This document shows positions 13,096 to 63,670 of a stretch of 64,000 bases of DNA, in pieces. This DNA is from Anaerolineae bacterium (GTDB lineage: Bacteria > Chloroflexota > Anaerolineae > Aggregatilineales > Aggregatilineaceae), in the NCBI GenBank assembly GCA_023382715.1, contig JAHDWP010000002.1, positions 165,923 through 229,922 of the forward strand. Direction: 5' to 3'. The first letter of the stretch is position 1. The number at the start of each line of letters is the position of its first letter. The notes below the pieces were generated by a model, which saw only the letters and a list, made by a program, of their open reading frames with translations, searched no databases and was not told the DNA's origin. Both the position numbers and the translations under genes were made by a program.

Positions 13096-13245
13096 GAGCG
13101 TGTACGAAAACCCCTCACCCCTGCACCCCTCTCCCTCACCGGGGAGAGGGGAAATCCTGCGCCTTGCTCCCCTTCTCCCCCTGGAGGGAGAAGGGGTTGG
13201 GGGGATGAGGGGGAGCTTACCAGACACCTTTTGACAGGTTTTGCG
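13096..13245 (+). repeat. GC-rich double-hairpin repeat after a stop codon
   Basis: Begins GAGCGTGTACGAAAACCCC directly at the stop of the C26 gene and contains CCCCTCTCC...GGAGAGGGG and CCCCTTCTCCCCCT...AGGGAGAAGGGG hairpins, ending near GACAGGTTTTGC (13231-13242). Its start resembles the AGCGTGTTATG ends found after two other genes in this window. It may serve as a transcription terminator. Confidence 0.6.
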
Positions 13246-33932: not shown

Positions 33933-34646
33933 TCAGCGATTCCCAAAGACGACTTCGCCCGCTTCGATGGCGGCCAGCGCGCGCTGCGCCGCGTCCTGCG
34001 CGGCGACCTGCTTGCTGTGGCCGACGCCCACCCCGCACACTGTCGTCCCGATCAGCACCTGCACCGTGAATTGCTTGGCGTGGTCGGGGCCATAGCTCTC
34101 GACGGTGCGGTAGGCGGGCGTCTCGCCGAGCGCCGCCTGGCTCCATTCCTGAAGCAGGCTCTTGGCGTCCTTCTCAGTGTCGCGCTCCAGCATATCAGCC
34201 AGGGCCGGTTCCAGCAGCGGCTCGACGAAGGCGCGCGCGGCGGACATGCCCTGGTCCAGGTACAGCGCGCCGATCAGCGCCTCGAACGCGCCGCACAGGT
34301 TCTTCGGGCGATGACGCCCCCCGGAGTCGTCTTCTCCCTTGCCGAGCAGCAACGCCTCGCCCAGCCGGTAACCCGCCGCGAAGGAGGCCAGCGCCTCCGT
34401 CCGCACGAGTCCGGCGCGCAGGCGGGTGAGCCGGCCCTCGTCCATCTCCGGGAAGCGATCATAGAGCCACGCCCCGGCGATGAAGTCCAGAACAGCATCT
34501 CCCAGGAACTCCAGCCGCTCATTGTCTTCGAGAGAATGCTCGGGGTGCTCGTTCAGGTACGACCGATGCGTGAGCGCGCGCTGCAACAGCGAGAGGTTGC
34601 GGAATTCGACGTTGAGCCGTTCTTGAATTCTGGTCAGTTCAGTCAT
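33933..34646 (-). CDS. rnc: Ribonuclease III
   Basis: A 237-residue double-strand-specific RNase that processes rRNA and regulatory RNAs. Signature ERLEFLGDAVLDF carries the catalytic residues Glu43, Glu46 and Asp50; GAFEALIGALYLDQG supplies the second acidic cluster. A dsRNA-binding domain (about 160-235, LLQEWSQAALGETPAYRTVE, KQVAAQDAAQRALAAIE) completes it. I start at the ATG ending at 34646 because it gives the normal family length; the frame is open 114 bp further up. A short hairpin lies in the leader at 34711-34730. Confidence 0.94.
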   Translation of the reverse strand: MTELTRIQERLNVEFRNLSLLQRALTHRSYLNEHPEHSLEDNERLEFLGDAVLDFIAGAWLYDRFPEMDEGRLTRLRAGLVRTEALASFAAGYRLGEALLLGKGEDDSGGRHRPKNLCGAFEALIGALYLDQGMSAARAFVEPLLEPALADMLERDTEKDAKSLLQEWSQAALGETPAYRTVESYGPDHAKQFTVQVLIGTTVCGVGVGHSKQVAAQDAAQRALAAIEAGEVVFGNR

Positions 34647-34710
34647 AGGTATCTGCGTGTCAGCCGCCAGGGCAGAACGTGGCCCGTTGGGGCGAGCGTG
34701 CTCTGGGAAG

Positions 34711-34730
34711 CTCCCCGCTTTAGCGGGGAG
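34711..34730. repeat. Hairpin in the rnc leader
   Basis: CTCCCCGCTTTAGCGGGGAG: 8-bp stem, 4-base loop, 65 bp before the rnc start. It could be a processing or attenuation site for rnc, or a small repeat. Confidence 0.55.
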
Positions 34731-34812
34731 AGTCGTCACTGCGAGCTTGTTATACCGCATACAAGCACAAGGCGGCTACCCGGCGCTGCTATGCCTGAAT
34801 CGCTCCGGTGCC

Positions 34813-34993
34813 CTAGAGGCTGTTATGAACTTTGGCAGGCGGGCAGCTCCTGTGCTTGCCCCCCATCCTCGGTCCTTCCCCCGCACGGGGGGAAGGAAGA
34901 AGCCCGCCCTGGCCCCTTCCCTCCGCTTGCGTGGGGGAAGGGATCAGGGGATGGGGGGATGTCCACCCGGCAGAAGTGCATAACACGCTCTAG
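34813..34993. repeat. 181-bp element with inverted CTAGAG...TGTTATG ends
   Basis: The left end reads CTAGAGGCTGTTATGAACTT; the right end, on the other strand, reads CTAGAGCGTGTTATGCACTT. About 24 of the outer 31 positions agree. Inside are GC-rich hairpins (CCTTCCCCC...GGGGGAAGG). The outermost four bases are CTAG on both sides, possibly a duplicated target. The TAG of the right end is the stop codon of the neighbouring hydrolase gene. A second end is at 62581-62600. Confidence 0.75.
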
Positions 34994-36474
34994 CTGCTTT
35001 CGTAGGTGGCCCTCAAGACCCTCTTCATGAGCGCGGCGAATTCCGCCGGTTCCTCAAACAAGGGGCGGTGGCCGGAGTGCTCAAAGACGAGCATCTCCTT
35101 TGAGGGCGCTTCCAGGATTTCAAACCACTCGTTGGCGAGGACGGCCCGACCGCGAGCCTCGTGTTTGCCGATCACCAGGTACACGGGAATGTCGAGCTTC
35201 GGAACGTCGCTGCGAAAATCAATGTTCTGTAGCTGGGGATACAGGACAGAGAAGGTGTCGAGGAAAGCGCGCAGCCCATTGATCCTGTCCATCAGCGTGT
35301 TTTCGGGGACGAACAGGTTGGCCGGCATCTCTTTGCTCGTGTCCAGTTCTGGGTACGCATTCCACTCGTGCTCATACGAGAGGGCCGGCTCGTATTCGAG
35401 CAGATCGCCGTAGGGCGGAGGCCCATTTTTGCGCAGGGTGGCAGCCAGCGACTTGTTGCCGGTCTGGTCTGCCCAGGCCAGAGTATCTTCGTAGAACATC
35501 CTGTCCGTCTCGCGCGGGCTGACCATCTGCCCGGTCCCGATAAAAGCGTGAAACAGATCGGGCCGTTCCTGAACAACGAGCACGCCGAGGAGAGTCCCCC
35601 AGGAGTTGCCCACCAGGTAAATCTTGTCCTCATCGAACCGATCGCGCAGATAGTCGGTGATTTCGATGGTATCGGCCACCATCTGGCTGACGGTGAGCGT
35701 CTGCACGGGATCGAGCGCCGAATAGGACTTGCCAGAGCCGCGCTGATCCCAGGTGACCACCACGAAGTCCTGCTCCAATGCGGTATCAGCGCGCATGGCG
35801 CCGAGATCGGTGCCGCCGGGTCCCCCCGCCAGATACAACAGGACGGGGCTTTCGACGCTTCTCCCCCGGATCATCATCGCCTGCTCGTGCCCGCCGATGC
35901 GCACCGTGATCAGCTCCGCGATGCTGCCCGGCAGGGGTTTGCCGTCGGGGCCGGGGATAGCAGCGGTAGTGGCCGGGCGGCTTATCGCGATGGCCAGCGC
36001 CATGAGCGCCGCGGTCAGCAGGCCGGTGAACACCCAGCCCACCGTACTCGTCCTGGGGGCCGTGGCGTGACCCAGGCGGGAGGCAATCCAGATCCCATAG
36101 ACCGTGCCCAGCATCATGGGGACCAGCACGAGGACTCCCTGTACGCCGCGCCCCAGGACGAACGCCAGGATGCCATAAGTTGAGTTGAGATGGAGGCCGT
36201 CCACGGTGGGGCCGTCAGTCCCGCTTCGGGCGAACTCAAACACAGCCATGAAGATCACCGGCGCGACCAGGATGCTCCAGCGGCTCCCCATGACAAGGCC
36301 CGCCACCACCCCAACGCCCAGCGCAATACCCATAGCCAGCAATGCCTGGGAAGAAGTCACCGGGCCGCGCGGCATCAGCCAGGCATTGACCCACCCCGCA
36401 GCGCCCGCTGCCACAACTGCAACAGCGAGACTCATTCGCCAGTCTGACCACAGAGGCTTCAACAGGGCATCCAT
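34990..36474 (-). CDS. Membrane-anchored alpha/beta hydrolase (proline iminopeptidase-like)
   Basis: A 494-residue protein. Four to five hydrophobic helices occupy residues 15-170; an alpha/beta hydrolase domain follows with LLYLAGGPGGTD (oxyanion region), WDQRGSGKS as in S33 proline iminopeptidases, the nucleophile elbow GNSWGTLLG (Ser near 288) and the late His in EHSGHRPLF. The acid is probably the Glu of VIGKHEARG or a nearby residue. It would cleave small peptides or esters at the cell surface. The last codons read ESS and then TAG, and that TAG is part of the repeat element's end. Confidence 0.85.
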   Translation of the reverse strand: MDALLKPLWSDWRMSLAVAVVAAGAAGWVNAWLMPRGPVTSSQALLAMGIALGVGVVAGLVMGSRWSILVAPVIFMAVFEFARSGTDGPTVDGLHLNSTYGILAFVLGRGVQGVLVLVPMMLGTVYGIWIASRLGHATAPRTSTVGWVFTGLLTAALMALAIAISRPATTAAIPGPDGKPLPGSIAELITVRIGGHEQAMMIRGRSVESPVLLYLAGGPGGTDLGAMRADTALEQDFVVVTWDQRGSGKSYSALDPVQTLTVSQMVADTIEITDYLRDRFDEDKIYLVGNSWGTLLGVLVVQERPDLFHAFIGTGQMVSPRETDRMFYEDTLAWADQTGNKSLAATLRKNGPPPYGDLLEYEPALSYEHEWNAYPELDTSKEMPANLFVPENTLMDRINGLRAFLDTFSVLYPQLQNIDFRSDVPKLDIPVYLVIGKHEARGRAVLANEWFEILEAPSKEMLVFEHSGHRPLFEEPAEFAALMKRVLRATYESS

Positions 36475-62479: not shown

Positions 62480-62600
62480 TCCCGGCCCTTCCCCCTCAAA
62501 AGGGAAGGGGGAAAAGCGGCGAGCCTGCTCCCCTTCCCTCCGCGCAGCGTGGGGGAAAGGGCTGGGGGATGGGGGGCGAAAAGTTCATAACACGCTCTAG
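62480..62600. repeat. GC-rich hairpins ending in AGTTCATAACACGCTCTAG
   Basis: CCCTTCCCCCT...AGGGAAGGGG and a second CCCCTTCCCTCC...GGGGGAAAGGG hairpin end in AGTTCATAACACGCTCTAG (62582-62600), the same terminus as the 181-bp element at 34813-34993. The last CTA, on the minus strand TAG, is the stop codon of the URO-D gene. No matching left end is visible. Together with the composite repeat it fills the 422-bp gap. Confidence 0.7.
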
Positions 62601-63670
62601 AAGCGGCTGGGGTAGTCGGCTCCCCAGATGTCAGCGGCTTGGAAGAACGTGGTCACGTTCTCCCAGCGACACTCAGGCTCCAAGTCATAGGCGGGGCTGA
62701 GGATCAGCCCGCCGCCGGCCCCCACAGTCATGATCCGCTCGAAGACTTCGCGCCGGATGTCTTCCGGCGTGCCCCAGGCCCAGCGCTGCGGCGTGCCGAC
62801 CGTCCCCCAGAAGGCGAGCCGGTCGCCGTATTCGCGCTTGAGCCTGGCGGGGTCCATCACGTCCGGCTGCACGGGGTTGAGCACATCCACGCCGATCTCG
62901 ATCAGGTCGGGGATGATCGGCTCGATGTTGCCGTCGCTGTGCCAGAAAATGAACAGATCGGGGTTGATGGCGCGACAGGCGGCGATGATCGCGCGCACGC
63001 ACGGCTTGAAGGTGCGCCGCCACGCTTCCGGGCTGATCAACATGCGAGTCGGCTCGGCCACGTCGTCGTCGAGGGCCAGGATGTCAACACCGGCCCTGGT
63101 CAGAGCCACCGAGAGGGTGACGTGCATCGCGGTAAGCTGCTCCAGCAGGTAGTCCACCAGCGGCGGGTTCTCGACCAGATCGATCATGAACTGCTCGAAG
63201 CCGCGCAGCCGCCAGGCCGTCTCGAATAGCTCCCCGCCGAGATGAGGCGGCGAGGCCATCACCGCGTAGCCCTGCTGTTGGTGATGCTCAACGGCGCGGC
63301 GCAGGCCGTCGGAGTCGAACCGCTGCATGAAGTCCGGCAGCGGTGCGGCGGCGATCTGGGCGATGGTCTCCGCGCCGCCGAGCGGCGCATCGCGCGCGAC
63401 TTCCGGGTGATAGCCCCAGTCGTGGTAGGTTTTCAGGATGGGCCGCGAGCCGACGTAGACATCGTCCGGCAGGGACTTCAGATAGCTGAGGAAGCTGGCC
63501 TGCTGGCTCGGCGGGTCGGCGGTGACGAAGCGAATCTCACAGTCGAACATCTCGCCCGCATCGCGATCCGGATACTGGGGAAACGACCAGGGATAGAAAT
63601 TGACCATCCTCGGCAGGCGGTCGGGCGGCTGGTGGCGCAGTACGGCCTGTACACGCTCGCGCGGTCTCAT
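62597..63670 (-). CDS. Uroporphyrinogen decarboxylase (URO-D) family protein
   Basis: A 357-residue TIM-barrel protein of the URO-D/methyltransferase superfamily. It opens MRPRERVQAVLRHQPPDRLP as usual for the group. FIFWHSDGNIEPIIPDLIEI and VDVLNPVQPDVMDPARLK mark the active-site face; the His and the acidic residues could bind zinc, as in cobamide-dependent methyltransferases (MtaA/MtbA). True HemE is unlikely because its N-terminal RxR signature for porphyrin acetates is not evident. The substrate may be a methylated compound or sugar derivative. The C-terminal SRF is followed by a TAG that belongs to the repeat end. Confidence 0.85.
   Translation of the reverse strand: MRPRERVQAVLRHQPPDRLPRMVNFYPWSFPQYPDRDAGEMFDCEIRFVTADPPSQQASFLSYLKSLPDDVYVGSRPILKTYHDWGYHPEVARDAPLGGAETIAQIAAAPLPDFMQRFDSDGLRRAVEHHQQQGYAVMASPPHLGGELFETAWRLRGFEQFMIDLVENPPLVDYLLEQLTAMHVTLSVALTRAGVDILALDDDVAEPTRMLISPEAWRRTFKPCVRAIIAACRAINPDLFIFWHSDGNIEPIIPDLIEIGVDVLNPVQPDVMDPARLKREYGDRLAFWGTVGTPQRWAWGTPEDIRREVFERIMTVGAGGGLILSPAYDLEPECRWENVTTFFQAADIWGADYPSRF

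Follow-up and report, generated by a model that had tools for sequence, protein, structure and literature searches.

The locus

Within the 64,000-nucleotide stretch of DNA analysed here (the window), an alpha/beta hydrolase gene on the minus strand ends at a short repeat that has the properties of an IS5-family MITE. The terminal sequence of this repeat also follows the stop codon of a URO-D-like gene, and a different repeat follows a C26 peptidase gene. The features discussed, including an intact insertion sequence (IS) elsewhere in the same genome, are as follows.

34816..34990, plus strand: IS5-family MITE, 175 bp, with imperfect inverted repeats GAGGCTGTTATG.. / GAGCGTGTTATG.., delimited by alignment of copies
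34814..34815, no strand: left TA target-site duplication (target CTAG), from alignment of flanks
34991..34992, no strand: right TA target-site duplication, which forms the first two bases of the hydrolase TAG stop on the minus strand
34990..36474, minus strand: alpha/beta hydrolase gene; the last letter of its TAG stop, at 34990, is also the terminal base of the MITE
62597..63670, minus strand: URO-D-like gene; the first base of an element forms part of its TAG stop
62586..62597, minus strand: lone GAGCGTGTTATG end of the MITE/IS type, following the URO-D stop
13096..13232 (right limit approximate), plus strand: GC-rich repeat after the TGA of the C26 peptidase gene, unrelated to the MITE
C2:40654-41524 (= L017:1001-1871): resident IS5-family element, 871 bp, intact, recognized by its ends and transposase

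The hydrolase gene starts at 36474 in the longest open reading frame and at 36414 according to a codon-usage caller. Read on the minus strand, it ends with AGC, the stop codon TAG at 34992-34990, and then AGCGTGTTATG, which confirms the preliminary description of a repeat end adjoining this stop. The "CTAG" at this end is composite: the C belongs to the element, the TA to the duplication and the G to the flank.

At the URO-D-like gene, TAG at 62599-62597 is likewise followed by AGCGTGTTATG. The preliminary description thus placed this stop correctly at a repeat end, but only one end is present, not a whole repeat. No partner of the end at 62586-62597 was found, and the DNA behind it mostly matches other repeats that lack this end. 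Well-preserved GAGCGTGTTATG ends without a recognizable partner end within approximately 380 bp occur at L016, L019, L020, L022 and L028, as well as at 62586-62597 of the window.

The site at 13096, previously listed as carrying a similar end, contains another GC-rich repeat. It was rejected as a third family member because it has only GAGCGTGT in common with the MITE, follows TGA rather than YTA, and lacks a matching inverted end. This repeat (13096-13232) lies directly after the C26 TGA and is palindromic (GAGCGTGTACG/GAGCGTGTCTGG...CCCCTCACCCC); L019 and L010 contain related pieces, as does L017 next to the resident IS. A separate stretch, GTAGTGGACCCATAAAGCTGGACACAATTATCGC, is common to L013, L027 and L031 near contig breaks in the source genome, and probably represents a further mobile element that interrupted the assembly.

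A recently spread family of short elements

Alignment of copies and their flanks sets the limits of the 34816-34990 body as TA/GAGGCTGTTATGAAC...GTGCATAACACGCTC/TA, or in short form TA/GAGGCTGTTATG...CATAACACGCTC/TA. The source genome (3.88 Mb in 82 contigs) contains about 14 copies, ten of them nearly identical. Twelve matches are full or nearly full length at 92-100% identity, and further copies comprise one that is truncated, one at 82% and one that is split. Pairwise differences among the ten full copies average 1.4 of 175 bases, with a maximum of 3; the family has therefore spread recently. The terminal sequence GAGCGTGTTATG has 23 exact matches in the genome, versus 0 for the reversed control, and 59 versus 7 when at most one mismatch is allowed.

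These properties are those of a MITE. The element is short and multicopy, carries no transposase gene, has terminal inverted repeats (GAGGCTGTTATG / GAGCGTGTTATG) and is bordered by a TA duplication. Copies are inserted in both orientations, and relatives retain orthologous sites without the element (G004 for L008 and L011; G001 and G004 for L003).

A potential autonomous partner

The 871-bp resident IS has the ends GAGCGTGTTATGCACTTT / GAGCCTGTTCTGCACTTT, which match those of the MITE, and is flanked by TA on both sides within a CTAG target. Its 269-amino-acid transposase is of the IS5-type DDE kind: it scores 204 bits against NCBIfam NF033580 (transpos_IS5_3; cut-off 110) and contains the Pfam domains DUF4096 (PF13340) and DDE_Tnp_1 (PF01609). 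In these domains, its length of about 870 bp, its GAG-starting ends and its YTAR-type target, the resident IS resembles the IS5 family and its MITEs. The IS and the MITE may belong to the IS427-like subgroup of IS5, with which a TA duplication is consistent.

Relatives of the resident IS are found in Anaerolineae and, patchily, in cyanobacteria, Rubrobacter, Acidobacteria and other groups. One of these, L126 from Anaerolineae LM3-B4.2, carries the asymmetric pair of the MITE itself, GAGCGTGTTATG / GAGGCTGTTATG, with identical 12-bp ends. Beyond the ends, the MITE interior and the resident IS have no common sequence, which rules out a simple internal deletion of this IS as the origin of the MITE. 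An Rfam scan gave no match to the MITE body, and in this and in its interior the MITE departs from the IS5-family pattern.

Target site and duplication

The MITE begins with G, ends with C, and is inserted into YTAR, mostly CTAG. Most copies sit in CTAG, where duplications of TA and of CTAG are indistinguishable. In the copies located in TTAG and CTAA (L004, L005 and L009), the outer base alone varies while the G and C of the element are constant. The duplication is therefore TA and the target YTAR, and a 4-bp CTAG duplication is rejected on the same grounds. A set of 80 MITE and IS insertions, drawn from many genomes and each flanked by TA at both ends, has CTAG as the target in 53 cases and YTAR in 72; 77 have G...C ends, a figure somewhat biased because the pattern used to search for ends favours a leading G. 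The targeting of CTAG suggested in the preliminary description is thus upheld, more exactly as YTAR.

Because the element begins with G and TA is duplicated, insertion into TAG regenerates TAG. The element is G-first on either strand, so TA plus G is rebuilt at both junctions and TAG is retained. By the same rule, a TAA stop would become TAG after insertion.

Distribution relative to stop codons

When the empty sites are rejoined, eight of the 14 MITE copies fall within the stop codon of a called gene and six fall elsewhere. Pfam supports five of these eight genes, which encode the alpha/beta hydrolase, a glutamate-type dehydrogenase, a peroxiredoxin, a multihaem cytochrome and an exo/endonuclease-like protein. 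Other elements with the same end are in a stop codon in 5 of 17 cases, including that at the URO-D-like gene.

The placement is not peculiar to the MITE. In other genomes and lineages, full IS copies are also found at the stops of Pfam-supported genes (pyridine nucleotide oxidoreductase, glycosyltransferase, integrase and MGS-like). In Anaerolineae FR_5, a full IS copy (L073:1456-2326) occupies one CTAG that provides the stop of two convergent genes, an F420H2-dependent quinone reductase-like gene and a type IV leader peptidase family gene, both of which keep TAG. These cases imply that stop placement follows the IS5-type target rule and not the MITE body.

The source genome is GC-rich, and many stop codons lie in CTAG. 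In 464 kb, made up of a 400-kb stretch of contig C1 and the window, with genes called by a codon-usage gene caller written for this analysis, CTAG sites outside coding sequences comprise 38 at a stop codon and 58 that are intergenic. Because about 40% of the noncoding CTAG sites are already stop codons, special targeting of gene 3' ends, as had been proposed, is not needed. For the targets used, 4.9 stop-codon copies are expected versus the eight seen, and this excess is weak. Most of the pattern is accounted for by CTAG targeting combined with the loss of insertions that disrupt genes, although a mild further bias may exist.

Such a bias might reflect active targeting of gene 3' ends in addition to CTAG, perhaps through transcription complexes at termination or through DNA structure at the 3' end. 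Among CTAG copies, 8 of 10 are at stops, compared with 40% of the CTAG sites outside coding sequences (Fisher P approximately 0.02), and in G001 and G028, three of four copies with called flanks are at stops. However, the first P value rises to 0.09 when divergent intergenic sites, where counter-selection is expected, are left out; for all CTAG ends it is 0.04 or 0.2, and the choice of null moves it between 0.01 and 0.2 overall. Moreover, only 2 of 13 sites are at stops for a related MITE family in G041, a genome of the same order but a different family, and the six copies away from stops in the source genome also argue against such targeting, which we consider unlikely. It is similarly improbable that the elements have a real preference for CTAG at stop codons or 3' ends beyond its availability, as a "safe-site" strategy by which the G-first end, together with the duplicated TA, re-forms TAG on both strands.

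Possible function as a terminator or 3' UTR

The preliminary description also proposed a role as a ready-made 3' UTR or terminator, such that the MITE would be retained as a terminator or protective 3' UTR hairpin of the upstream genes. As an RNA, the whole MITE forms a single long hairpin (-105 kcal/mol, z -5.2), but a palindromic element will fold in this way regardless of function. No terminator-like stem with a T-run is present at 34600-35200, and a promoter scan at the MITE found none. The near identity of the copies reflects recent spread rather than long conservation, and both orientations and non-stop locations occur. A terminator or 3' UTR function therefore finds no support, and retention for this purpose is very unlikely.

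Stop codons are kept

The joined flanks of every stop-codon MITE copy still read TAG; those of the 34813 copy read AGC TAG GGC. Sister species have four of the sites without an insertion and with an identical CTAG stop, namely L003, L008, L011 and the URO-D-like gene. The URO-D orthologues in G001 (95% amino acid identity) and G004 (92%) end in ATC TAG without an element. At L007, relative G001 stops at the same codon, as TGA, and at L014 relatives also stop at the same codon, as TGA in G003 and TAG in G005. No hydrolase orthologue was found in close relatives; the more distant homologues that were compared end within a few residues of the same C-terminal position.

The sequences indicate that the stop of a resident gene is preserved by the insertion, not created by it, contrary to the earlier proposal that insertions create or replace stop codons. 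That an insertion made or shifted a stop and so altered the C-terminus of a protein is hardly credible in view of the hydrolase homologues, the joined flanks and the four element-free orthologues, even though the peroxiredoxin at L010 ends two codons before that of G004.

Proposed mechanism and relation to known systems

The repeat at 34816-34990 is very probably a nonautonomous IS5-family MITE that is moved in trans, and whose YTAR target, combined with selection, gives the appearance of 3'-end targeting. The ends, copies, TA duplication, targets and pre-existing stops are observed, whereas mobilization of the MITE by the transposase and the removal of gene-breaking insertions by selection are inferred. 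A DDE transposase of the IS5 type, for example the one encoded by the resident IS, would bind the matching MITE ends in trans and integrate the element at the TA of YTAR, with CTAG preferred, so that TA is duplicated. With TA plus G restored at both junctions, an interrupted TAG stop remains TAG. Insertions within genes would be lost, and those at stop codons and other noncoding CTAG sites would survive, which would account for the apparent preference for 3' ends.

IS5 of E. coli has CTAG/CTAA-type 4-bp targets and an intergenic bias (PMC11677980). The type of target is thus common to IS5 and the MITE, whereas IS5 is reported to duplicate 4 bp and the MITE duplicates TA alone. Our literature search found no direct report of IS5-type insertion into stop codons, but an IS481-type precedent was found. 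TnRErm46 / ISRe46 (IS481 family) of Rhodococcus equi targets CTAG and thereby provides the TAG stop of genes, parB among them, without interrupting their function (PMC6794481). Like the MITE, TnRErm46 has a CTAG target with the TAG stop kept; in contrast, it uses another transposase family, makes an NCTAGN duplication and is an autonomous resistance transposon (PMC6794481).

The stop-codon placement is therefore neat yet essentially ordinary, in that a known kind of element has a known type of consequence. The choice of YTAR and the G-first terminus make insertion into a stop codon harmless, which allows a transposon to persist in a gene-dense, GC-rich genome. Repeats that adjoin stop codons are not necessarily terminators or regulatory 3' UTRs, and the TA/G rule could help to refine the annotation of IS5-type MITEs in Chloroflexota.
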